Part shown: piece by piece, positions 6,682 through 29,535 of the stretch
Numbering within the stretch: the first letter of the stretch is position 1
Layout of the letters: each line of letters opens with the position of its first letter
Origin: Fibrobacter sp.
Lineage (GTDB): Bacteria > Fibrobacterota > Chitinivibrionia > Chitinivibrionales > Chitinispirillaceae
DNA: 34,565 nt
Reading direction: 5' to 3'
NCBI GenBank assembly: GCA_012728995.1
Contig: JAAYEB010000136.1
Coordinates: 1 to 34,565 of the forward strand
Notes under the pieces: model-generated
What the model saw: only the letters and a program-made list of their open reading frames with translations
The model's database searches: none
What the model was told of the DNA's origin: nothing
Translations under genes and position numbers: made by a program

Positions 6682-9600
6682 TCATTTTTCACTCAGTTCC
6701 AGAACTCCCAGATCAAAAAATCCTTTTGTATTTTCAGGTATTCTTATGATACGATTCTTTTTGTTATTCAGACCAGATTCACAAATTATATACATCCCTG
6801 TGCTGTTGCAAATCACGTTAAACTTCCCGTTAACGTCTGTAAATGTATGGAATGTTGTATCCAGCGAAGAAAACATAATCCTTGTAAAACGAAGTGGTTT
6901 TTTCTGCGAATCTGTTATTCTTCCGGAAACCATGATAGTACTACCGCTTGATGAATCATGCTTTTCTTCATCCGGTATTTTATAATCATCAGCATCAAGC
7001 ACCAATCTCCCCAACTGGAAAAAAGATCCCATTTTTTCCTCAGGTACATCAAACCCGGCAACACCGTATACCGAATCCCCGTTTTCAATTGCAATTTTTG
7101 TCCTTATATTGTAACTGCCGGGTTCCCTCAGTATAAACTGAAAACTCCCTTTATTGTCAGTAAAAGTACTTGTTGTTCCGGATGTTCCGTTTTCTGCATT
7201 GTTAACACTAATGGCTTCATTTTTCAAAATACCCGAAGAATCACAAAGATTTCCGGAAATATAAACATACCTTCCCAAAGGATCATTTAATTTCTTTGCC
7301 GCCTCTTCAATTTGTGTTTCGGTTAATGAATCCAGTGCGCCCGTTTCCTTTTCATCTGTCTCCTTTTCTTCTCCAATCTCTTTATTCTCTTCATTTAATG
7401 GCCCATTGTCATCCGTAAATACACTATCTATGTAAAAAGGGTCGCTCTCGACTTCTTTAGAATCCAGTTCATCAATTTCATTTAAAATGATATCACCTGC
7501 ATTATAATAATCCTCCAGATCCGCAGGTATATTTATACTGCCTTTTTCGTAATATTCATCCGCGACTTCTACAGAATAAGTTTTTCCAACCTTTGCAAGA
7601 AATTGAAACCTGCCTGCCTGATTAGTAAAAGTAACTACTGTATCCCCGTTTTCTTTTGCATTTTCGATAAATTTAATCTGCTGGTACTCAAAAACCTCTT
7701 CTTTTTTATTTATTAAACTTCCGGTAACGAAAACTTTTTTGTCGGACCCTATTGTTATCAGAAAGCCACTTTTATACTGTGGAAACAGGGTAAAATCCTG
7801 TTTTTCATCAACTGAAGCAAGCGGCGCATCCACAGGCGAAATTTTAACGTCCATTAACTGATACTGAGAAAAAAGCGGTAATACGGCACCACCAAACCAG
7901 GTTGAGGTTGCATCATATCCATTGTCCCTGTCATTTATTCTGACAGTGTGTTTTTTTAGATTCTTGTTTCCTTTAGCAATTAAAAAACCTCCATGTACCG
8001 GACGTGACAAGGCAAGTGCTGTTGGTGTAAAAACAAGTGCCGTTTTAAGGTTTATATTCGTATGGTGCTGAAGAAATGTATTGCTTGCGAAACCTGGCTC
8101 TGCAATTGTATGATTAACTTCCATAGAACCGGCATTTCCACTATACCCAAGTTTGGCATTGTAATCACTATATTCCCGATTCAAGCGTGTAGAAACTCCC
8201 ATAATCGGTTTTTCCGGTTTTGGTTTCAGACTTACATAATCCCAATTTACATCTGTAGTAAAATCCCATCGCCGGTCGCTGTTATTATCCGTTAAATCAT
8301 AGGTGTTGTCATAAAGGGGATTGCGCTTGTTTATACCCTGCCTTACATTTAAAAAGTTGGAATTTTTCATGAATGACCATTGTACACTCAGTGTTACCAT
8401 CGGGTTTGCTTCATGAAGTTTATTGTCTGTGGAGTATTTAAAACCGACCTGAGTGTTAATTTTTCCTGCCCACCTTTTCTGCAAATTTAACCCGATTGAA
8501 AAATAATCGGTAGTATCCGGACGGATATCATATTCACCCCTGGCACCAATTCTTATCTGATCAAGAGGAATCGACAAATCAGTTGCCAGACGAAAGGACT
8601 CTTCATAAAACCTGAGATTTTGTTCAAGTGTTCCGGGAAATTTTCTTCCTAAATATTCTGCTTCTGTTTTCCAGTTTACAGTTGACAACCTTCGCTTGTT
8701 GTTCTCATCATCCTGCGAATACCTTATTTTTGATCTGTAATGAAATCCCATCCTTGCCGCCATATCAAATCCTGCTGTATCTAAATAAGTAACTGCTGAC
8801 GAAAGGAATAAATTTCCTGCAGGAATTGCATAAAGGCACTCCGTTCCAACAATACCCTTGTCGCGAAAAGCCTGCCCGTATACATCCATCGTAAACCGGT
8901 TGGTAATTCCCCTTCTGTACATCAATGAAACAAACGGATTTCTTGAATCATACTGATACCTGTCTGATGTTCTTGTTTCAGCAAAACCAGCATTAAAGGA
9001 ATACTGTGAGAAATTTTTGGCAAGAAGCTGTGGCTCATGTAAAAAGGAAAAGTCTATTGTTTCCCTGCGTCCCGAAAAATCCCTTATGACAATCTCAACT
9101 TCATTTGATCCTTCTGCAAAAGGATAATTCTGAATATTATGGGTCCCAGATTCAAGTACTATTTTCCTTACCATAACTCCGTTTACCCAAACCTCGACTT
9201 CAGCAGGATCAACCAGATAGAACTCGTAATCTCCCAGTGGATAGGATAAAATGTGAGGAGCGAGAGAATAATCTTTTGATAAACTTATACCTCCTATCGG
9301 CACATGAGACTGGTAACCGACAGTGCCATAACGGATATCACCCGCAGCCAGCCTTAATGTTCTTTGGGGAAAATCATAGACGATCCTCACGTCTTTTCTT
9401 TGAAAAGGAGTATTATTACTTTCACGGTATAATGCCCCGCCTTCGGCTACAGCGCCCATAATATTTAGTGCTCCGTGAAAATTACAGTACAAAGGCTGAC
9501 GAATATTGTCATTTGAACCATAAAAGCTGTAAATTGATGAAGAATCGTCAGAGAGGTCCTGCAAATATCTTAACTGCTGAGTCGCGTTTATATTTAAATA

Positions 9601-10218
9601 CCCGCTAAAATTCGCGGGTTTAATACTTTGAGAAAGATATGGGTCCTGTTTTGAATATTTCAGTTGATGAACCTGTTTTGTACGCAGTTTTGGGGGCACA
9701 AAAACAGTTACCAGACGTTCTTCTGAATCGAACTCTGTAAGTAAGCCAATCAAATCCAGGTCATTTTTCGATATTCTCCCGAACTTGTCAATTTTTCCGA
9801 TTACTTCTTTTAGCAGGTTCTTATCTATCACATCGGAAAGGATACCCACAACCGGTTTTGCCGGAACTGTAAAGTTTTCCCTGTCTTCAGAAAAAACAAC
9901 ATCAATCCTGTTCCCTGATTTATTATTTACTTTGATAACAGCTTCAATCTCTTTTGGCATTGCAGGCGCATCAATACCGAATATTTCACGATACAACTCT
10001 TCACGAGTTTTTCCCTCAAAACCCTTTTCCAGTATTTTTTTGCTTTCTTCAATCAAATCCTTTTTGTCCGCTGTTTGTTCAACCGAAGGTGAAAAAACTG
10101 ATTGTGACAAAGAATCGTCTGTATATGAGGACAGCACAAACAGAAGCAGGCAAAAACCTGAAAAGGGATTTAAAAATCCCGGTTTTAAAAGCGTTTTAAT
10201 CAGGATAATTTTTGCCAT
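6682..10218 (-). CDS. Outer-membrane fimbrial usher with C-terminal beta-domain extension
   Basis: Usher of a chaperone-usher pilus: an outer-membrane beta-barrel that receives chaperone-subunit complexes and assembles the pilus. About 1178 aa from ATG 10218. Signal peptide, periplasmic N-domain (about 40-180), barrel (about 190-820). The middle motif around 338-375 is diagnostic: VEVWVNGVMVRK, then NEVEIVIRDFSGR, matching the usher consensus VxVxVNGxxV ... GxNxVxVxxxDxxGR. The C-terminus carries three carboxypeptidase-regulatory-like beta domains (about 820-910, 985-1085, 1095-1178), the first two separated by an acidic Glu/Asp-rich linker (about 920-975). Classical ushers are about 800-880 aa with only one or two small C-terminal domains. 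A TTG 48 bases upstream is open, but the ATG gives the better signal peptide. Last gene of the pilus operon, 113 bp after the chaperone. Confidence 0.88.
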   Translation of the reverse strand: MAKIILIKTLLKPGFLNPFSGFCLLLFVLSSYTDDSLSQSVFSPSVEQTADKKDLIEESKKILEKGFEGKTREELYREIFGIDAPAMPKEIEAVIKVNNKSGNRIDVVFSEDRENFTVPAKPVVGILSDVIDKNLLKEVIGKIDKFGRISKNDLDLIGLLTEFDSEERLVTVFVPPKLRTKQVHQLKYSKQDPYLSQSIKPANFSGYLNINATQQLRYLQDLSDDSSSIYSFYGSNDNIRQPLYCNFHGALNIMGAVAEGGALYRESNNTPFQRKDVRIVYDFPQRTLRLAAGDIRYGTVGYQSHVPIGGISLSKDYSLAPHILSYPLGDYEFYLVDPAEVEVWVNGVMVRKIVLESGTHNIQNYPFAEGSNEVEIVIRDFSGRRETIDFSFLHEPQLLAKNFSQYSFNAGFAETRTSDRYQYDSRNPFVSLMYRRGITNRFTMDVYGQAFRDKGIVGTECLYAIPAGNLFLSSAVTYLDTAGFDMAARMGFHYRSKIRYSQDDENNKRRLSTVNWKTEAEYLGRKFPGTLEQNLRFYEESFRLATDLSIPLDQIRIGARGEYDIRPDTTDYFSIGLNLQKRWAGKINTQVGFKYSTDNKLHEANPMVTLSVQWSFMKNSNFLNVRQGINKRNPLYDNTYDLTDNNSDRRWDFTTDVNWDYVSLKPKPEKPIMGVSTRLNREYSDYNAKLGYSGNAGSMEVNHTIAEPGFASNTFLQHHTNINLKTALVFTPTALALSRPVHGGFLIAKGNKNLKKHTVRINDRDNGYDATSTWFGGAVLPLFSQYQLMDVKISPVDAPLASVDEKQDFTLFPQYKSGFLITIGSDKKVFVTGSLINKKEEVFEYQQIKFIENAKENGDTVVTFTNQAGRFQFLAKVGKTYSVEVADEYYEKGSINIPADLEDYYNAGDIILNEIDELDSKEVESDPFYIDSVFTDDNGPLNEENKEIGEEKETDEKETGALDSLTETQIEEAAKKLNDPLGRYVYISGNLCDSSGILKNEAISVNNAENGTSGTTSTFTDNKGSFQFILREPGSYNIRTKIAIENGDSVYGVAGFDVPEEKMGSFFQLGRLVLDADDYKIPDEEKHDSSSGSTIMVSGRITDSQKKPLRFTRIMFSSLDTTFHTFTDVNGKFNVICNSTGMYIICESGLNNKKNRIIRIPENTKGFFDLGVLELSEK

Positions 10219-10331
10219 TAACTGAGATGTCCGGATTTCAAGGGTCCAAAACTTTGCATTTACCAAAAAATATTCACATATCGGATCCAGCCATTTTTTC
10301 GCGACAGCAAAATTTATTTGAATAAATACAT

Positions 10332-11132
10332 CTATTTCTCGAACTCTACGCTTACACGCACCGGTCCTGCCGGTATCTCTTCAGGCCACGAAAGATCAAG
10401 CACCCGATCATATCCGGCAAAAACACTGTGTTTAATATGTTTTGACTCCAGTTTTGGTTTATAAATCATACTCTTTGATCGGTTTATCTGACCATTTTTG
10501 TCCAATGATGAAACCCTGAGAAATAATCCTTTTAAATTCTGAAGTCCTGTACCTTTGTTATTCAGGTTTACCACAAGGCGATCATTATCCTCTTCATCCT
10601 TTTTATGTACTGCAGATTTAACAACAAGATCGGGTTTTATACCGGACGGACGCAGAACAATAATTCCTTCATAACGCGCGACAAGGTAAAGCCTGAGTTC
10701 GGCTTTTTCACGTTTTTCATCTTCATCCCCTATTTTAACAGGAACTTCTTCGGCAATAAGTCCGTAGGCAATCTCTTTTTTGGGAATTGTATTACCAACC
10801 CATTTAATCTGTACTCTCTGATTATCTCCGGGCATTAGTACTACCTGAGCGGGATAGATTATAAAATTTCTGGATATCTCTTCATTTTCTTTATGAATCA
10901 CCTTTTCACCATCAATACTTATCTCACGCTCTGTAACTTTCAGCTCAACCGCAACCGGTCTTTTTACATCACCCTCAAATTTAAGTAATACTTCAGCACT
11001 GGTTTTCCCTTTTGATATCTCCAGCACCGTTATCAACGGATTCAATGAAAATCCGCAATAAATTGTCGAAAAAAAACCTGATAAAAGCAATAAAGAAAAA
11101 CTTTTCAAAATAAACGGTTTTCTTTTTTTCAT
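10332..11132 (-). CDS. Periplasmic pilus chaperone (PapD-like)
   Basis: 266-aa chaperone that caps pilin subunits in the periplasm by donor-strand complementation and delivers them to the usher. Signal peptide (about 1-27), then two Ig-like domains. Visible family features are the run VVLMPGDNQRVQIKW, corresponding to the P-G-x-x-Q-x-(I/V)-R/K-(I/V) strand of domain 1, and the strand LVARYEGIIVLRPSG matching the G1 region that donates the strand. ATG 11132 is chosen because AAAGGTGA lies 6 bases before it; the in-frame GTG at 11141 overlaps that site. It lies 26 bp after the second pilin and before the usher. This gene order is standard for alternative chaperone-usher operons. Confidence 0.88.
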   Translation of the reverse strand: MKKRKPFILKSFSLLLLSGFFSTIYCGFSLNPLITVLEISKGKTSAEVLLKFEGDVKRPVAVELKVTEREISIDGEKVIHKENEEISRNFIIYPAQVVLMPGDNQRVQIKWVGNTIPKKEIAYGLIAEEVPVKIGDEDEKREKAELRLYLVARYEGIIVLRPSGIKPDLVVKSAVHKKDEEDNDRLVVNLNNKGTGLQNLKGLFLRVSSLDKNGQINRSKSMIYKPKLESKHIKHSVFAGYDRVLDLSWPEEIPAGPVRVSVEFEK

Positions 11133-11158
11133 GCTATTCACCTTTTGTGAAAATTCTT

Positions 11159-11659
11159 TTATAATCCAACACTGATCGTAACAGTAATAGTTTCAAAGTA
11201 AAATCCTGCCATTTTCCCCAACGGATCATCCCAGTCAGCATTGAGATCAATAATAAAGTTAACAGTTTCGCTTGAAGGTTCTGTACCCGGATTCCATATA
11301 TACTCATCCCCTCCATTTAATTTATCCAGGACATCTATTTCGTTTGGCTCTGTAAGGCCCTCACCAAGAGTTCCACTTACCTTATTTAAAACAAGAGCTG
11401 TCATTGGTATTTCATTGTTGCCGTTAATAAATTTTGCAAAATTTGCGAATTTAAATGTAACATCAAAACCGGTTGCGCTGTTACTGTTGATCACAAAATA
11501 TGCGATCTGCTCCCTGCTTCCAGCCTGAGTAAAATTTAAACCAAAAACTCCCTGACACTGTATGTTATTTATAAGGTCATCCGGTGGAGAAAGTGCAAAA
11601 ACATCAGAAACGGCAAGATACATAAAACATAGGTACACAGGTAAATGTATCCTGTTCAA
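11159..11659 (-). CDS. Second pilin-like subunit
   Basis: Exported 166-aa subunit, paralogous to the upstream major pilin. Both begin MNR, carry a signal peptide, share a (I/V)xNxNS strand and end with nearly the same strand (MAGFYFETITVTI here, MAGLYTETITYTI there). The TTG at 11659 is preferred because AAGGAA lies 5-6 bases upstream and it reproduces the MNR start; an earlier TTG (11665) is too close to the site. Ala at the end of SDVFA is the likely signal-peptidase site. The mature protein is a single beta domain, as expected of a donor-strand-exchange subunit. It may be a minor or tip subunit, because it lies after a hairpin that should lower its expression. Only weakly similar to proteobacterial pilins. 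Confidence 0.75.
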   Translation of the reverse strand: MNRIHLPVYLCFMYLAVSDVFALSPPDDLINNIQCQGVFGLNFTQAGSREQIAYFVINSNSATGFDVTFKFANFAKFINGNNEIPMTALVLNKVSGTLGEGLTEPNEIDVLDKLNGGDEYIWNPGTEPSSETVNFIIDLNADWDDPLGKMAGFYFETITVTISVGL

Positions 11660-11807
11660 AGCCAATTCCTTCCTGATTCAAATATATCAATCGGATTTTC
11701 GTTTATACATTATGCATTAAATGAATTTAAAAGAAAACTCAAATCTTAATGATTATACAATTACTGCAGTTTTCCGACAAGAAATTTAGCAGAGGCAAAG
11801 CATAGAC

Positions 11808-11840
11808 AAAAGGAGGCAGTTACACTTTCCGCCTCCTTTT
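11808..11840 (-). terminator. Attenuator-like terminator after the major pilin gene
   Basis: Perfect 10-bp inverted repeat AAAAGGAGGC (11808-11817) / GCCTCCTTTT (11831-11840), loop 13 nt, 17 bp past the pilin stop on the minus strand. The second arm ends in TTTT on that strand. It sits between pilin 1 and pilin 2, so partial read-through would give much more major pilin than assembly proteins. Confidence 0.75.
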
Positions 11841-11857
11841 CGAAAACAGGATTTATT

Positions 11858-12385
11858 TTACAGTTCAGCAGTTATTGTATATGTAATAGTTTCAGTATAC
11901 AATCCTGCCATTGCTTCAGCGGAATTAGCCCAATCTGCAGTCATTTCAATCTGATAATTTATAGTTGCTGAAGTTTGTTCAGTATCTCCTTTTACAGCAG
12001 CATTCCATGTATAGCTGTCAGTTTCAGTGGTTATACCTAAATTATCAGCAGGAAGCTCATTACAACCAGTTCCTAATGTTCCGGTATTATTGCCATCACT
12101 AAGCAATATTTCTTCAATAGTGATTTCTGAAGTTCCATTTGAAAATGCACCTTTATTTTCAAACTGCCATGTAATAGAATAACCTGGTGAATTATTATTT
12201 ACTATAAATGTTGCAATCGTTACGTCATCTCCAGAAGATCCGAAGTCGAGTGAAAGAACACCTATACCTATGATACTGTTGATAAGAGGTATGTTTCCAC
12301 CAACTGTAACCTGTCCGGCAAATGATGATCCGACCAGAGCGATAACTGCTACAAGGGCCAGGGCTGTTTTTCTCAATCTGTTCAT
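11858..12385 (-). CDS. Major pilin-like subunit
   Basis: 175-aa exported protein, probably the main structural pilin. Signal peptide about 1-23 (hydrophobic core ALALVAVIALVG, cleavage after SSFA). The mature part is a small beta-rich, Asn/Thr/Gly-rich domain ending GLYTETITYTITAEL. The alternating C-terminal strand resembles that of CsuA/B (spore coat U) and CS1-type subunits, but no close relative can be named by eye. ATG 12385 has a strong AAAAGGAG site with 5-base spacing. First gene of the operon that ends with the usher. Role rests mainly on context and on similarity to the second subunit. Confidence 0.78.
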   Translation of the reverse strand: MNRLRKTALALVAVIALVGSSFAGQVTVGGNIPLINSIIGIGVLSLDFGSSGDDVTIATFIVNNNSPGYSITWQFENKGAFSNGTSEITIEEILLSDGNNTGTLGTGCNELPADNLGITTETDSYTWNAAVKGDTEQTSATINYQIEMTADWANSAEAMAGLYTETITYTITAEL

Positions 12386-13175: not shown

Positions 13176-15221
13176 ATGTATAAAAGCAGCTTTTCAAGAC
13201 TTTGGCCATTTCTTTTTCTTTTCACTCATATACTTTTTTGGGCTTTCCCATACCAGACCAGTGCAAAGACATATCAAGGTCAAGTCTTTTGTAACAACCA
13301 GCCTCTGGATTCGGTCAGAATCTCCTCTTTGCTTCATAAAACCTCTGTTTTTACAAAAAAAGATGGTTCATTTAAACTTGAAACCGCAGGTTTTAATCCC
13401 TGGGCTCCGGATTCCATAGTTCGTGATCAATACTACAATCACACCCTCCGAATACCCGGATCCGGAAAAATCCATTCATTCGTTTCAAAAAAAGGAAATA
13501 TCAATATTTCTCTTATCGACCTCAAAGGCCGCCAGATTGAACAGATCACAACCACAAAAAAAAACAGATTTTACATGAATAAAAGAACTGCTTCAGGTGT
13601 TCTGTTCCTGCAGATTGACAATAAAAAACCGGAACCACTCCTTCTTATAAAAAATCAAAAACAGAAGATTGTTCATCAGAAACAGTACAATCCGGTTCTA
13701 ATTACCCGGCCCGACAGTACGGTTCCGGATACACTTTTTTTCTGTAAAAAAGGATACACTTCATACCGTGCTCCGATTGATAAATTTTTAAACAAGCATG
13801 AAATCAGACTGCAAAAAAAAAGATGGTTAGCATCCGATATCCATAACCATACGGTTCTGACTGATGGTGGTTTTATACAGGATTCATTACTTAGACACGC
13901 TTTCAGTGAGGGTGGGCTTGATGTTTATATGAATGCAGAACATGGCGGAATGTTTTACCTGGACACATCAGGAAACTATATAATTGATGATCCTTTTCAC
14001 CAGACAAATGCACCTCGTTACAGTAACTCCCTTATTCCAAGGTGGTATACACTAAAATATTTTTCCTGGCCCAAAATTCTCGGGCAACGCAAACTTTATC
14101 CCGACAAAATTATACTTCAGGGACTTGAATGGAACTGCCCCGGACACGAGCATTCAACTGTAGGCTTTATTAACGACTCCGATCAACCGGATGCCATAGC
14201 CAATTTTGAGTATATGTTTGATTTTAAAGATTACGATAACAGTATACAATGGTTGCCAAAGAATAACCTGATGAAACATTACAATGCTATTGAAGGTCTT
14301 AACTGGCTTAAAAACAATTACCCTTCATCAAGTTTCTTTTTCATTAATCACCCGTCACGTGAAGCAATCGGCGCCTACACTGCAAGTGATTTCCGGGATT
14401 TTCATAATGCTGCTCCACAGATTTTTCTTGGTTTTGAAGGTATGCCAGGACATCATAAAAGTTCTGTAAGGGGAGCATATTTCTACGGCTCTTCAGAAAA
14501 AAACAGAACATGGGGAGGCGCAGATTACATTCTTGCCAAAGTTGGTGGAGTCTGGGACGCACTTTTAGGAGAGGGACGGCATATATGGATAATTGTAAAT
14601 TCCGATTTCCACTATAATACCAGCGATTTCTGGCCTGGTCAATATGCAAAAACATGGTCTTCCGTTACAGATACAGGTGCTCTGGCCTGGCTTGAAGGGG
14701 TGAGATCCGGAGAAATGTTTATTGTTCACGGCGACCTTGTTTCTGATCTTGAATTCTATATTGATGACGGGGTTTTTGATGCACCAATGGGCTCAGACCT
14801 TCACAGCAGTTCCAGAGAGATTAATATAAAAATACGTTTTAAAAACCCACCAATAAATAATAACGGAGACAAAGTAAAAGTCGACCATATAGACCTTATA
14901 AGAGGAAACATTACAGGCAAAATAGCCCCTTCAGATCCTGCTTACTATTCAAATTCAACCAACACATCAACCAAAGTAATAAAAAGATTCCATGAGAAAG
15001 ACTGGATAACAGAAAACGGATGGAACACTATGAATACTACTGTTTCCTTAACACAACCAGCTTATTTCAGACTTCGGGGGACGAATCTTGCTGTGGGCAC
15101 ACCGGGAGAAACAGATCCTGACGGTAATCCGCTTATGGACCTGGATGATGCAAACAGCGAACAGGTAGCATGGAACGATCTGTGGTTTTATTCCAATCCG
15201 ATCTTTGTGTATTTAAGATAA
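13176..15221 (+). CDS. Secreted PHP-domain metallohydrolase
   Basis: 681-aa exported protein. Signal peptide about 1-30; then a beta-rich N-terminal region containing a sorting-like module (about 105-165: ISLIDLKGRQI ... ASGVLFLQI); then a PHP-type metal-dependent phosphoesterase/hydrolase domain (about 217-600). Metal-binding signatures are DIHNHTVLTDGG (H223, H225), LEWNCPGHEH, INHPSREA and VNSDFHY, which match the order of PHP motifs (as in CehA/McbA-like enzymes). The substrate is not deducible; extracellular PHP proteins of this type are often annotated only as hydrolases. The ribosome-binding site before ATG 13176 is weak (AGGCAG). Stands alone, divergent from the pilus operon and convergent with the lipoprotein gene. 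Confidence 0.8.
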   Translation: MYKSSFSRLWPFLFLFTHILFWAFPYQTSAKTYQGQVFCNNQPLDSVRISSLLHKTSVFTKKDGSFKLETAGFNPWAPDSIVRDQYYNHTLRIPGSGKIHSFVSKKGNINISLIDLKGRQIEQITTTKKNRFYMNKRTASGVLFLQIDNKKPEPLLLIKNQKQKIVHQKQYNPVLITRPDSTVPDTLFFCKKGYTSYRAPIDKFLNKHEIRLQKKRWLASDIHNHTVLTDGGFIQDSLLRHAFSEGGLDVYMNAEHGGMFYLDTSGNYIIDDPFHQTNAPRYSNSLIPRWYTLKYFSWPKILGQRKLYPDKIILQGLEWNCPGHEHSTVGFINDSDQPDAIANFEYMFDFKDYDNSIQWLPKNNLMKHYNAIEGLNWLKNNYPSSSFFFINHPSREAIGAYTASDFRDFHNAAPQIFLGFEGMPGHHKSSVRGAYFYGSSEKNRTWGGADYILAKVGGVWDALLGEGRHIWIIVNSDFHYNTSDFWPGQYAKTWSSVTDTGALAWLEGVRSGEMFIVHGDLVSDLEFYIDDGVFDAPMGSDLHSSSREINIKIRFKNPPINNNGDKVKVDHIDLIRGNITGKIAPSDPAYYSNSTNTSTKVIKRFHEKDWITENGWNTMNTTVSLTQPAYFRLRGTNLAVGTPGETDPDGNPLMDLDDANSEQVAWNDLWFYSNPIFVYLR

Positions 15222-15247
15222 AACCCGAAACCCGAAACCCGAAACTC
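15221..15247. repeat. AAACCCG short tandem repeat
   Basis: Three perfect 7-bp units AAACCCG followed by a degenerate one (AAACTCA), exactly between the stop codons of two convergent genes. No hairpin. Confidence 0.8.
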
Positions 15248-15866
15248 AGAAATCAATTACACTGTTTTCACCTTGATTTACAAAAACAGGAACTTTTTCT
15301 CCCCATCTGAAACCTGAGGGATAGGATTGATCCAGCAAAATGATTTGTATAATATATTCTCCTGGTGGCACGTTTTCGAATTTATAAGATCCATTTTCTG
15401 AAACGACTTCGTGATAATCCAGGCCAGATAAAAATACCAGGTATTTCATTTTTGAATCTGATTCAATTTTACCACTCACAGAACCTGTTTTTTTCAGTTT
15501 ACCTCTATGTGATTCCAGATAAGAACGCTGATTCTTACATGTCACATTTTTGATAATACCAGAGTTATTTGAAATAGGATCAACTATCAAGACATTGTAA
15601 ACACCACTATCGCAAGTAAAAGAGTAATAACCCTGTTCGTCAGCTACTTGTACCACCCCGAGTCCTTTTCCGATATATGGAATGTATGAAGTATCAAAGA
15701 GAAAAACCCTGGAAAATTTTGGCGCCACACCCTCTATTGAATTGGACGATGCCACAACAGTGTAACCGTTAGTAGTCTCTACTCCCGACAGATTTTGAGT
15801 ACAGTTATTATAAATTAAAAAAATAACTGAAATTGCAGTTAATAATACTCTTTTATTCAGCGCCAT
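15246..15866 (-). CDS. Small lipoprotein with carboxypeptidase-regulatory-like domains
   Basis: 206 aa. N-terminal export signal with Cys22 in IYNNC, a non-canonical lipobox (Asn at -1), followed by a polar run with an ETTNG motif. Two beta-sandwich segments resemble carboxypeptidase-regulatory-like domains: about 45-110 and 125-206 (GSVSGKIES ... ENGSYKFENVPPGEYIIQI). Such pairs of TIGR02147 regulator plus short lipoprotein are, from memory, typical of Fibrobacterota; function unknown. AAGGAGG precedes ATG 15866, which lies inside the end of the regulator gene (14-bp overlap), so the two are almost surely co-transcribed. Last gene of the serpin operon. Confidence 0.75.
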   Translation of the reverse strand: MALNKRVLLTAISVIFLIYNNCTQNLSGVETTNGYTVVASSNSIEGVAPKFSRVFLFDTSYIPYIGKGLGVVQVADEQGYYSFTCDSGVYNVLIVDPISNNSGIIKNVTCKNQRSYLESHRGKLKKTGSVSGKIESDSKMKYLVFLSGLDYHEVVSENGSYKFENVPPGEYIIQIILLDQSYPSGFRWGEKVPVFVNQGENSVIDF

Positions 15867-17382: not shown

Positions 17383-18714
17383 TTATTCAGATAATGATGG
17401 ATCCATTGTCCTTCCCATAAACAGAATCGTTTGAATTTCCCTGTCGCGTATCAGGTAAATAAAAGGATGATTTGCAATAAAACTTGGTACATCAGTTGAC
17501 GTTCTCCCAAATACTACTGCAGTAGCAGCCGCAGCTTCAGTACCGGATTCATCAACAGATATAAAAGCCTTGTGAATAACATCACTTATATATAAATCAT
17601 GGTTATTAATTTTCGTAAAGTCAGCATTACCGGGACTGAAAGCATCAATCATTCCCATTGCAACAAGCACATCTTTAATTGACAAGCTACTGGTTGTATA
17701 TTCGAATTTGGGTAACTGAACCGGCAATTCTGTGGAATCCAGTTCTGATATCAACTGTTCAATATTATCAAGAGTAAGAGAACCTTCAAAATCTGAAAAT
17801 GACCCCTGATCGGGTAACAGCACGGTCATAACCAATCTGTCACCTTCATACGGAAAGTCCATAACTCTCACATTACTACCGCGTTTGTATAACATTTTAA
17901 CCTTTTCATTGGAGTCATTCAGATTCATAAGCGGTACAGCAACTGTACTGTTATCAATACAATAAAAATCTCCGGTTTCTGTTAACTCAGGATTAAAACT
18001 GGAAAGCCAGTCTGCCAGAAAATAAATGGCATTGGTTAAAACCAGTTCTGTGGCAGGAGTTATTACTCCCTGCGGAATGAGATCGCAAATTTTATTATTT
18101 GTCTGTTCTTCAACCCATGTATTTATTATAACCCTGCTTTCTTCAGGTTGTGCAGCAAAGTCCAGAAGATTCACACCTGCTCCGTAATACCGGGAAAGTG
18201 TATTTAAAAAACCGGTAGTAAATGGTACTCTCGTCTGCATCCATGCACTGTTAACTACATTCAGTGTAACACCATCAACAGTCTGAGTATATCCCATTAA
18301 CTCCTGATCAAGCCCGTTTATAGCTGCATGAAACAGATCTCCACCAAATGCATCACAGAGCACTTCACGCATCTGCCTTTCTGTTTCTCCATCGGCACCG
18401 GCACTCGCCATTGCCAGAGCTACAACCATACTGTAAGGTGAGAAAAACAGATTCTGATTACTTTCCACCAACTCCTGCTCAATTATCGACTTGTACATAT
18501 CCAGAGCAAACCTGTTAATACTTTTTGCCTGAATATCAATATTCTCTTTAGACCCGATCTCACGGCTGACTGAAAGAGACTTACTGAATCCAAAAGGAGT
18601 ATTACTTTCGGGATCCTTGTCACCCCGGTTTTCTTCACTGCTTAATGGATTCTCTGAACAACCTGCAATTATAAATGCAATTCCGCAAAGAATTAACAAT
18701 CTCAAACCTTTCAT
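17383..18714 (-). CDS. Lipoprotein serpin (protease inhibitor)
   Basis: 443 aa. Export signal with clear lipobox IIAGC (Cys19), Ser/Asp/Glu linker, then a complete serpin domain (about 70-443). Visible serpin features are NLFFSPYSMVVALAMASAGA near the start, VLTNAIYF, a reactive-centre hinge beginning at E389 (ESGTEAAAATAVV, P17-P5) and a closing FIANHPFIYLIRD. The short small-residue hinge fits an inhibitory, loop-inserting serpin. Counting from P17 puts P1 at Thr405, with Arg404 next to it, so the scissile bond is uncertain. ATG 18714 is fixed by AAAGGAGGAG at 3-9 bases; the frame is open upstream but without a signal peptide match. First gene of a four-gene operon. Anchored outside or in the periplasm it would trap proteases, perhaps endogenous ones such as the M4 enzyme in this window (speculative; serpins usually target Ser/Cys proteases). 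Confidence 0.93.
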   Translation of the reverse strand: MKGLRLLILCGIAFIIAGCSENPLSSEENRGDKDPESNTPFGFSKSLSVSREIGSKENIDIQAKSINRFALDMYKSIIEQELVESNQNLFFSPYSMVVALAMASAGADGETERQMREVLCDAFGGDLFHAAINGLDQELMGYTQTVDGVTLNVVNSAWMQTRVPFTTGFLNTLSRYYGAGVNLLDFAAQPEESRVIINTWVEEQTNNKICDLIPQGVITPATELVLTNAIYFLADWLSSFNPELTETGDFYCIDNSTVAVPLMNLNDSNEKVKMLYKRGSNVRVMDFPYEGDRLVMTVLLPDQGSFSDFEGSLTLDNIEQLISELDSTELPVQLPKFEYTTSSLSIKDVLVAMGMIDAFSPGNADFTKINNHDLYISDVIHKAFISVDESGTEAAAATAVVFGRTSTDVPSFIANHPFIYLIRDREIQTILFMGRTMDPSLSE

Positions 18715-19555
18715 AACTCCTCCTTTGGGCAATGTATAACTTTCCAAACCAATTTAAGCTTTTAAACATTTTCCTGTGCGACAGCTTTGATTATTTGATT
18801 AACTGATTTTGTTCATTGATATCAATTCACTCATTTAATAATATAGCGTATCCGGAATCGGTTTTCAACAGCTAAAATTATTATATGCTTCCTGTTTCAG
18901 GAAGCATATAATTTAATTTAATTTTCATTTTCTTATTATATATCATACACTTAAAGTTGTTTGTATTTTTTACCATTCAAATATTTTTTTATGTTTAGGA
19001 AGCAGCGGGGTTATAAAGCAAGACAAAAATCACCTTAGTACCCCAAAAATTTTTCAGTATCAGGTATTTTAAAGTAACTGCGATTATTATTAAGACCGAT
19101 ACAATTTTGTACATCTCAATATACTATGCCTTATATTCTAAAAAATTTCCGTATCGAAATAAACAGGTTCTATATTTATACCTGGTAGAGATTAAAGTCC
19201 GGTAGCCATTTTATTAATGGAATTATGTTAAAAAATTGCACAAGAAAAACAGAACACTGGTCTTTACCAAACGAAACGGATTGTGTTAGTCTCAGACACA
19301 TCAAATCATTAGTTGCACGACCCATAAAGGGATGGGTTTTGATATGAAACTATTTCTGCTGCACACTGGTTATGGTACCAGGCCAGGATGCAGTAACTGT
19401 GCGTTGCCCAGGGATAATATCATCATTAGCCACAACACCTTAACGAACTTTCTTTTTGGATATCGTTAAAGGAAAAACGTAGTACCCCCTCAAAAAAGCG
19501 AAATACTTATTGGACCTGATTTAAAAAATTGTAAATACTTCACAATGGAGTTTAC
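18715..19555. other. Divergent intergenic region between serpin operon and xylanase
   Basis: 841 bp. Contains a perfect 15-bp hairpin (18880-18912) and a weaker inverted repeat TTAACGA/TCGTTAA (19440-19469) close to the xylanase start. No ORF, tRNA or known riboswitch recognised. Promoters for both directions presumably lie here. Confidence 0.5.
18880..18912. terminator. Perfect 15-bp hairpin, orphan terminator-like
   Basis: Arms ATTATATGCTTCCTG (18880-18894) and CAGGAAGCATATAAT (18898-18912), loop of 3 nt; TTTAATTTA follows on the plus strand. It does not follow any visible gene on either strand, so it may end an unannotated small RNA or be a protein-binding palindrome. Confidence 0.55.
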
Positions 19556-26520: not shown

Positions 26521-29500
26521 ATGTTTTTCAAAACCACCTTATCTCTTGTGGTCAGCTTAATCGTTTCAAGCACGTTCTCTCCAATCTTTGCCCTTAACGG
26601 GACTTTCACCCGTTCCGGTAATTCGCTGCGTAAACCAACTTCGACTTCACAGATATCTTCAGACACTCTGAGCATCAGATACGATATTGAAAGAAAAACA
26701 CCCGTTTTCATATCTGGAAAAATTGTTGAACCTCCTTCTGGTTCACAGGTATTAAAAAAAATGAGCGTGGTTGCGCAAAAACGGGCTCTTTGCCGATCGT
26801 TTTTATCAAAAATCGGTCCTGCACTGAGAATCGCTCATCCCGAAGATGAACTTTTAGTTACTGATATTGATGAGGCAAAAATACTCACTCCCAAAACCGC
26901 TCATTTCAAGATCCGTCAGAAATATCGGGGCATAACTATTCTGGGAGCCGAGGCGACTGTTCACCTCAAAGGAGACCGGGCCGATTTTGTCGGCCGTACT
27001 ATCGCTACCCCAGACCTCGACATAGTCCCATCGTTTACTGCAAACCAGGCCATAGGTCGCGTTCTCAAAGATCTTCACAACAATAATATCAAAGTGCAGA
27101 AATTCAGCCCTGATGAGCAGGAGTTTCTTGACTACAAAGAACCATCCGCACAAATTATCATTTATCCTTCTCTGGAAAGCGGTTCCACAGACTGTCTGGC
27201 CTATCAGATTTTTGTGCGTCCAAACATGCTCGATTGGTGGGAATATATTGTGGATGCCCACACCGGGGAATTTCTCCTGAAATACAATCGTACCAGCCAT
27301 TTTGGCGACACAACGATTACTGCCATAGATTTCAGCGGCAACCAACGAGAGATCCATACTTACCTGAGCGATAAACACTATCTTATTGATGCTTCGCGTG
27401 CGATGTTCGATCCGGTAAAATCGAGAATACCCAATAATTTAACCGGGGCAATTGTTACCTATGATTATAATAACAAATATCCCTCATTTTCCTCCTACAG
27501 CCTCATCACACCAACACATAATGGCTGGGATCCCAAAGCAGTATCCGCGCATTATAATTCTTCGGTTGCATACGAGTATTACCTTTATACACATGGCCGC
27601 AATTCGATAGACGGACTTGGTGGAACGATCAGATCTTTTATCAACGTCGCCGATCAGTCTGGATGGCCATTGGACAATGCTTACTGGAACGGTAAAGGGA
27701 TGTATTACGGCAACGGAAGCCAGGTTTTTAATACACTTGTCAATGCACTTGACGTGGCTGCTCACGAGTTGACTCATGGTGTAATTGAGACAACGGCAGG
27801 GCTTCGCTACATAGGGCAATCCGGTGCTCTAAATGAATCTATGGCCGACATTTTCGCCTGCATGGTAGATCGTTCCAACTGGACAATAGGAGAAACAGTC
27901 ACACGCCCGGGGGTTTACCCCAACAATGTGCTTCGGGACCTTTCGAATCCGCATAACGGGGCAAGAAAGGACGAACAGGGATGGCAGCCTGAAAACATGT
28001 CGGAATACAAAAAATTGCCCAATACTACCGCAGGGGATAACGGTGGTGTCCATGTCAACAACAGCATTCCCAGCTATGCTTATTACCTTTTCGCAACAGA
28101 AGTGGGAAAGGAAAAGGCTGAACGCATTTTTTACCGCACCCTCACTACCTATCTGAGCGCATCATCGCAATTTGCAGATCTGCGCATAGGTGCCAGGCTG
28201 GCCTGTGAAGATTTGCATGGTAAAGAATCTGCTGAGATGACTGCGCTTATGGCTGCATTCGATAGTGTGGGTATTCTGGAGGACACCGAACCATTTACAC
28301 CTGTTGCTGATCTTCCAGTCAACACGGGAAAAGAGTATGTTCTTCTCACCGCTGCTCCTGCTGCAAGAGATGGAACAACACTTTACATAGCTGACAGCTT
28401 ATTCGGGTCGTTAAAAAGTGTTTCAAAGCGGCCTGTAAGTTTCCGGCCCTCAGTTTCCGATGATGGAAGCAAAGTACTTTTTGTAAGTGACAAACAGCTT
28501 GTCTCTCTAACCCTCAACGGTGATATTGCTACTGAAACGATAATCGACTCCTCCAGAGTCTGGGCGCTGTGTGCGATTTCCCGCGATGGACGACACTATG
28601 CTGCTGTACGGGAGGAAAACGACACCTCCATTTATATCGGAAGCATGAGCGACGGTTCGGTGCGAAGATACAATCTCAATGGTCCTGTTGAACAACAGGT
28701 GGCTACAGGTGCGGTTAACTCAACGGCTCTGGAATGGAATCTGACAGACGATGAAGTTATTTATGACGTGTTCAATTCATTGCCGGCTCAGGGCTCAAGT
28801 GGCCTGCAATTCTGGGACATCGGATTTCTCAGGTCGTGGGATGCGGAGCCGGATACGTTTGGCGATGGCTCGATAAGCAAGCTGTTTAATAATCTTGGTG
28901 ATGGTCTCAGCGTTGGGAATCCCACCTATTCCAAGAATTCACCAAATATAATCGCTTATGAATTAGTGGATAACTTGACATACACTGTTACTGTCATGAC
29001 CATGAATATGGAAAACCGCAAAACAGTAGCTGTAGCCCCAACTGAATATCCTGGATACCCAAGTTATTCCAGGCTGGATGACAAACTCGCATTTTCTACG
29101 ATCAGCGGCAGAGACACAGTCGTTTCGGTTGTAAAACTCAATGACGACAAGCAAACACCTGTGGGTGAGCCCACCATTGCAATAAGTAAAATGAAATGGC
29201 CGGTTTACTTTGCAACAGGACTCAGAAATCCCGACCCTACCCGTTCACGTTCGGATATGTTGAAGCGGCTTTCCAAACCCGGCCTGTCTGTAGTTCCGCA
29301 TAAAGGCAGATTGAAAATGACTATTACCGGCGTCGCGCAAGCCCAGGTCCGTATAAGCATAATTCGCGCAGATGGAAAAATAGTTGATAAAAAGAAGATT
29401 GTTGCCACCAGAGAAAACGTCCCCTACATCTGGAACAGTAAAAACGCTGGCGGAGGCTTTGTAGGAAGTGGAATTTATTTCATACGAATGGAAACCCCGC

Positions 29501-29535
29501 ATGGCGCAGTAGTAAAGAGAATTGCGATATTCTGA
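26521..29535 (+). CDS. Secreted M4 (thermolysin-like) metalloprotease with propeller domain
   Basis: 1004 aa zinc metalloendopeptidase. Signal peptide 1-24; FTP/PepSY propeptide (about 60-255); M4 catalytic domain (about 275-590) with the zinc site H415-E416-L-T-H419 in HELTHGVIE, third ligand E439 in NESMADIF, and catalytic H511 in GVHVNNSIP. Then a TolB/WD40-like beta-propeller (about 600-905; repeats such as RPSVSDDGSKVLFVS and YPSYSRLDDKLAFST) and a FlgD/sorting-like Ig module (about 920-1004; RISIIRADGKIV ... GSGIYFIRME). Thermolysin lacks the last two parts. The AGGGGG site before ATG 26521 supports the start. Stands alone. All catalytic residues are present, so active secretion as a zymogen is likely. 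Confidence 0.93.
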   Translation: MFFKTTLSLVVSLIVSSTFSPIFALNGTFTRSGNSLRKPTSTSQISSDTLSIRYDIERKTPVFISGKIVEPPSGSQVLKKMSVVAQKRALCRSFLSKIGPALRIAHPEDELLVTDIDEAKILTPKTAHFKIRQKYRGITILGAEATVHLKGDRADFVGRTIATPDLDIVPSFTANQAIGRVLKDLHNNNIKVQKFSPDEQEFLDYKEPSAQIIIYPSLESGSTDCLAYQIFVRPNMLDWWEYIVDAHTGEFLLKYNRTSHFGDTTITAIDFSGNQREIHTYLSDKHYLIDASRAMFDPVKSRIPNNLTGAIVTYDYNNKYPSFSSYSLITPTHNGWDPKAVSAHYNSSVAYEYYLYTHGRNSIDGLGGTIRSFINVADQSGWPLDNAYWNGKGMYYGNGSQVFNTLVNALDVAAHELTHGVIETTAGLRYIGQSGALNESMADIFACMVDRSNWTIGETVTRPGVYPNNVLRDLSNPHNGARKDEQGWQPENMSEYKKLPNTTAGDNGGVHVNNSIPSYAYYLFATEVGKEKAERIFYRTLTTYLSASSQFADLRIGARLACEDLHGKESAEMTALMAAFDSVGILEDTEPFTPVADLPVNTGKEYVLLTAAPAARDGTTLYIADSLFGSLKSVSKRPVSFRPSVSDDGSKVLFVSDKQLVSLTLNGDIATETIIDSSRVWALCAISRDGRHYAAVREENDTSIYIGSMSDGSVRRYNLNGPVEQQVATGAVNSTALEWNLTDDEVIYDVFNSLPAQGSSGLQFWDIGFLRSWDAEPDTFGDGSISKLFNNLGDGLSVGNPTYSKNSPNIIAYELVDNLTYTVTVMTMNMENRKTVAVAPTEYPGYPSYSRLDDKLAFSTISGRDTVVSVVKLNDDKQTPVGEPTIAISKMKWPVYFATGLRNPDPTRSRSDMLKRLSKPGLSVVPHKGRLKMTITGVAQAQVRISIIRADGKIVDKKKIVATRENVPYIWNSKNAGGGFVGSGIYFIRMETPHGAVVKRIAIF

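Follow-up and report, generated by a model that had tools for sequence, protein, structure and literature searches.

A four-gene chaperone-usher pilus operon with an enlarged usher in the Fibrobacterota

Organization and distribution of the pilus operon

The window analyzed here, a 34,565-nt stretch of DNA from a Fibrobacter sp. assembly (JAAYEB010000136.1, positions 1 to 34,565), corresponds to contig 57 of a 4.97-Mb metagenome-assembled genome (MAG) and harbors four intact open reading frames (ORFs), all on the minus strand and free of internal stops, for two pilins, a periplasmic chaperone and an usher. Pilin 1 (11858-12385, 175 aa) is followed by pilin 2 (11159-11665, probably starting at TTG 11659), the chaperone (10332-11141, probably from ATG 11132) and the usher (6682-10266), whose length is 1194 aa if translation starts at TTG 10266 and 1178 aa if it starts at ATG 10218. 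The intact ORFs, a match of the usher to PF00577 (41.4 bits, cut-off 27.1), a marginal PapD_N match of the chaperone and the pilin profiles bear out the pilin-pilin-chaperone-usher operon proposed in an earlier sequence-only reading. The operon usher is the sole one detectable with PF00577 in this genome, and no gene for a two-domain tip adhesin was found within the operon. These four genes very probably constitute a genuine minimal chaperone-usher pilus system related to the archaic (sigma) pathway.

Usher-family profile matches were obtained in 23 of 168 Fibrobacterota genomes, including 15 of the 89 genomes of good quality. The named relatives are MAGs of Fibrobacter sp., Fibrobacteres, Chitinivibrionales, Chitinispirillales and Candidatus Raymondbacteria, in agreement with the suggestion that this chaperone-usher system lies outside the Proteobacteria. 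The order pilin-pilin-chaperone-usher was found in 11 of the 20 loci read, with the remaining loci showing cuts at contig ends, additional pilins or chaperones, or an altered order. One operon (G071, locus L073) has a single usher and two chaperone genes (9177-9872 and 7437-8165) interleaved with three pilins. Viral contigs searched with the usher alignment yielded no relatives, the NCBIfam search gave nothing useful, and an Rfam search of the window gave no matches. An assembly join was ruled out in practice: a second genome (G004) has the same operon, with the same double extension of its usher (described below).

The pilin 1 gene begins at an ATG with a AAAAGGAG ribosome-binding site, and its product has a signal peptide followed by the N-terminal segment QVTVGGNIPLI, a candidate donor strand that is conserved in orthologues occupying the same operon position. 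Pilin 2 is a paralogue of pilin 1 with a shorter mature N-terminus lacking GGNIPLI, and two distinct pilins are conserved across operons. Neither pilin had a credible match in Pfam, including to the spore-coat-U family SCPU, and pilin alignments gave no meaningful match against PDB sequences. Pilin profiles, in contrast, recovered a pilin from the archaic-type operon of Leptolyngbya, with scores of 31 and 40 bits, and among 12 test proteins they found both Leptolyngbya pilins together with several proteobacterial ones. Just 3' of the pilin 1 stop lies a terminator- or attenuator-like hairpin (11808-11840, minus strand), formed by a perfect 10-bp inverted repeat (12 pairs with the inner pairs) followed by GTCT. 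A hairpin was present in the gap between the two pilin genes in all nine operons examined, at 16-31 bases from the stop in six of them and mostly with a T run; the control shuffles preserve base composition only, and for G164 11 of 100 shuffles scored equally well. A hairpin following the major pilin gene is a known feature of fimA and papA operons. Because the hairpin follows pilin 1 and GGNIPLI is confined to it, the arrangement suggests that pilin 1 is the major subunit and pilin 2 a tip or minor subunit. In another genome (G018; L066 9847-10941 and L067 743-2086), two paralogous operons encode very long pilin 1 homologues of 364 and 447 aa.

Relationship to known chaperone-usher pathways

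The usher is predicted to consist of an N-terminal domain (NTD), a beta barrel with plug, and C-terminal domains (CTDs), the architecture of a chaperone-usher protein. The chaperone-docking NTD (9655-10011, minus strand; residues 86-204 of 1194) scores 122.8 bits with the family NTD profile. An AlphaFold (AF2) model built from nine sequences has a mean predicted local distance difference test (pLDDT) score of 67; it contains the barrel anticipated by the sequence-only reading, and its top 18 Foldseek matches are all FimD or PapC (best E 7e-34, probability 1.00), with no archaic usher among the PDB structure matches listed. The plug, or middle domain (9022-9234, minus strand; approximately residues 345-415), is placed by strands in the model and by weak matches, namely to the TcfC E-set family in Pfam, below its cut-off, and to the Caf1A chain 3fcg with phmmer (E 0.21). 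Residues 838-915 (7522-7755, minus strand), the first of three "carboxypeptidase-like" domains, align with the C-terminal domain of each relative, Leptolyngbya and proteobacterial ushers of normal length (780-890 aa) among them, and the single CTD2 of the Leptolyngbya usher likewise shows a weak PF13620 match. By alignment with FimD, this domain appears to be the counterpart of the classical-usher CTD2, placed after the barrel and CTD1.

Among plasmid records, the best tblastn match of the usher was the usher of Leptolyngbya sp. BL0902 (E 1e-72, residues 86-903), followed by matches in Indioceanicola, Sphingobium, Novosphingobium, Vibrio and Acinetobacter, all of archaic type. The Leptolyngbya plasmid operon is the closest sequence found; it has the same pilin-pilin-chaperone-usher order and likewise no tip-adhesin gene. 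The likeness to the archaic pathway, represented by Csu of Acinetobacter and CupE of Pseudomonas, extends to the gene set, the pilins recovered by profile, and a tyrosine in the chaperone donor strand. The G1-strand motif of the chaperone is ARYEGIIV, with Tyr at P0, and with CsuC numbering fixed from the donor residues V110, F112, M114 and Y116, all 19 Fibrobacterota chaperones have Tyr at CsuC position 116, corresponding to a register-shifted donor strand. The system differs from archaic ones in the absence of a two-domain tip adhesin gene and in the pilins, each of which has one cysteine in the window instead of the invariant archaic pair, as well as in two extra CTD2-like domains of the usher.

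A further difference lies in how the chaperone would hold its subunits. Archaic and alternative chaperones anchor the subunit carboxylate through Arg89, Tyr196 and Arg174 (PMC4654587). None of the 19 Fibrobacterota chaperones has Arg at the Arg89 position, which is occupied by G, L, S, T, N, I or F (Gly in the window chaperone), in a register confirmed by hhalign (AYGLIAEEVP versus AYRLIVDELP). Arg89 is present in the Leptolyngbya, Qipengyuania and Acinetobacter chaperones and in EcpB; two further proteobacterial chaperones that were compared lack it. Most Fibrobacterota chaperones also differ at Tyr196 and Arg174, positions at which the alignment is less certain. Since Arg89 is replaced throughout and the other two residues mostly so, the archaic carboxylate anchor is not recognizable in this group.

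Similarity to the remaining pathways is patchier. The classical systems (FimC/FimD, PapD/PapC) share the predicted usher fold, as seen in the top structural matches, but differ in low sequence similarity, in the enlarged usher and perhaps in the chaperone, for which a weak alignment with FimC revealed no basic residues at the two basic-anchor positions of domain 1. With the alternative (alpha) pathway (EcpC, CfaC), the usher shares the weak TcfC match of its plug, and the CfaB pilin was, next to FimG, among the best Foldseek matches of the pilin 1 model, a poor model that lends this likeness weak support; the hhalign alignment to EcpC, at 15% probability, spans only the neighborhood of the plug.

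Several observations weigh against an archaic-related chaperone-usher system. Sequence similarity to the well-studied systems is low overall. The chaperone scores 22.4 bits with PapD_N, just below the cut-off of 23.0, and in a PDB profile search using the Fibrobacterota family alone its best match, CsuC, was weak (E 0.05); the window chaperone lacks all three archaic anchor residues. The usher profile gave no meaningful match to PDB sequences, and the pilin 1 AF2 model is poor (mean pLDDT 58). Finally, the closest usher matches among plasmid records are archaic-type by tblastn, while the position in the usher tree is not fixed: Fibrobacterota ushers do not resolve as one clade relative to the archaic-type set, which contributes only six rows, and the outgroups form long branches.

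The published distributions of archaic chaperone-usher systems that we consulted encompass Proteobacteria, Cyanobacteria and Deinococcus-Thermus (PMC4654587, PMC10104325), and our literature searches for chaperone-usher systems in Fibrobacter or Fibrobacteres found no report, only an unrelated review.

The usher extension and other expanded ushers

The usher has three PF13620 stretches in Pfam in addition to its PF00577 match. The sequence-only reading regarded all three beta domains as additional; the acidic linker and two of the domains are indeed extra, while the first is the standard CTD2 described above. The true extension thus consists of the linker plus two extra CTD2-like domains, and the longer tblastn alignments stop where it starts, near usher residue 890-940. 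The linker (7282-7512, minus strand; residues 919-995) contains 26 D/E and 6 K/R among its 77 residues and is modeled mostly as disordered, with pLDDT mostly about 28-50. The first extra domain (7057-7266, minus strand; residues approximately 1001-1070) scores 25.5 bits with the usher-CTD profile, its best PF13620 stretch covering residues 1003-1055. The second (6685-6945, minus strand; residues approximately 1108-1194) scores 20.3 bits with that profile and matches positions 847-937 of the usher family profile with an E-value of 6e-10. A search of plasmid records with the usher tail alone gave no match.

Beyond CTD2, the window usher carries 279 residues, compared to 254 in G004, 134 in G035 and 125 in G041, and only 13-48 in all other ushers. 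By profile, three CTD2-like domains were counted in the window and G004 ushers, two in those of G035 and G041, and one elsewhere where detected. These four ushers and that of G025, which has no extra copy, form a fully supported clade of five. Most ushers of the same phylum therefore lack the extension, as the sequence-only reading had considered possible, and its presence in four genomes identifies it as a gain and not an artefact. Judging from the tree and the domain counts, it is a clade-specific gain confined to one small clade, in line with the lineage-specific character initially proposed.

Expansion at the opposite end of the usher was observed elsewhere in the phylum. The ushers of family f11 (G163, locus L074; G164, L075; G162, L076) and of G064 (L077) have a second NTD copy upstream of the normal one, scoring 30-46 bits with the NTD profile. 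With the NTD doubled in these ushers and CTD2 multiplied in the window's clade, both periplasmic ends of the usher have been expanded, in different lineages. Separately, the NTD of the G035 usher (L031 69-3911) is preceded by an N-terminal extension of ~290 aa, which matches DUF5666 weakly and seems to contain an internal repeat.

Proposed assembly pathway and origin of the extra domains

In the pathway we propose, both pilins would enter the periplasm via Sec signal peptides, where the chaperone would hold them by donor-strand complementation and deliver them to the usher NTD. Pilin 2 would be laid down first, as the tip, and pilin 1, made at a higher level if the hairpin 3' of its gene attenuates read-through, would then polymerize by donor-strand exchange and exit through the usher barrel. 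In the Csu model, the incoming chaperone-subunit complex sits at the usher NTD and the capped pilus base at CTD1 and CTD2, and the driver of the handover between them is debated (PMC9452303). The least certain step concerns the extra CTD2 copies, which, carried on a flexible acidic periplasmic tether, might serve as an added contact surface for the pilus base or the usher N-tail; we put this forward tentatively, and the reportedly low affinity of the pilus base for the CTDs in classical systems (PMC9452303) weakens the case for such a docking role. Usher CTDs are periplasmic, as established for FimD and PapC. Since the extra domains come after CTD2, the placement on the external face entertained in the sequence-only reading is unlikely.

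The extra domains most likely arose by tandem duplication of CTD2. They share with CarboxypepD_reg (PF13620) the Pfam assignment of the usher CTD2-like domains, but resemble copies of the usher's own domain more than a separate regulatory module. Against the usher-CTD profile, extra domains score 56.3 bits in G041, 49.5 and 28 bits in G004, and 12.1 bits in G035, while the best of 30 other CarboxypepD_reg loci in the window's genome reaches 21.0 bits and the next 12.7. The case for duplication is consequently stronger in G041 and G004 than in the window, where the scores of the two extra copies (25.5 and 20.3) lie close to that of the best other locus and count against it, as does the G035 score. 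Because of these scores, some weight must be given to recruitment from another carboxypeptidase-regulatory-like protein, with the domains acting as a carbohydrate- or peptidoglycan-binding anchor of the usher instead of in fibre handling. The genome has 42 PF13620 matches, and the window itself a weak one, below cut-off, at 15246-15866; Pfam scores the extra domains as generic PF13620, and in pairwise comparison they share little identity with CTD2 domains (mostly 15-32%). We nevertheless consider recruitment somewhat unlikely, given that the leading G041 and G004 scores lie far above those of the other tested domains of the window's genome and that copy number is graded (0, 1, 2) inside one usher clade, as expected from tandem duplication.

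Whatever their origin, the extra domains might form a drifting tail with no part in pilus assembly. The extension is absent from the same-clade usher of G025 and from most relatives, and the extra domains of the window and G004 are 29-32% identical, with 35% for CTD2; a neutral tail is unlikely, however, with the beta-domain motif (FTD/N..G.F) retained in four genomes and no interrupting stops. A different alternative concerns the product of the operon, which could be linear polymer forming a capsule-like mat, in the manner of F1-type polyadhesin systems, instead of a discrete pilus. The absence of a two-domain tip adhesin gene from the operon favors such a product, but the Leptolyngbya operon of the same layout lacks one too, the two distinct pilins are conserved, and archaic relatives form discrete zigzag pili (PMC10104325), all of which makes a mat quite improbable.

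Elsewhere in the window, a 681-aa protein encoded divergently from the pilus operon (13176-15221, plus strand) matches no Pfam family above cut-off; from its sequence, we take it to be PHP-type phosphoesterase-like. The minus-strand ORF at 17383-18747, near a gene for a DUF4423 protein, has a strong serpin match (PF00079, E 4e-104) in this bacterial MAG, and that at 26521-29535 (plus strand) encodes a thermolysin-family (M4) metallopeptidase of 1004 aa with a long C-terminal region.

The chaperone-usher machine itself is well known; this operon comes from a phylum absent from the published lists consulted and has a clade-limited usher extension and an unusual chaperone. Fibrobacterota, with a minimal four-gene layout, are added to the phyla listed there for archaic chaperone-usher systems. 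The group-wide loss of the carboxylate-anchor Arg raises the question of how these chaperones grip their subunits, and the natural CTD2 and NTD duplications provide material for the question of how the pilus base moves from the NTD to the CTDs. It is conceivable, if doubtful, that the Fibrobacterota represent a separate chaperone-usher branch, with a different anchor for the pilin C-terminus and repeatedly multiplied usher docking domains (CTD2 and NTD) that would provide an alternative control of fibre handover.

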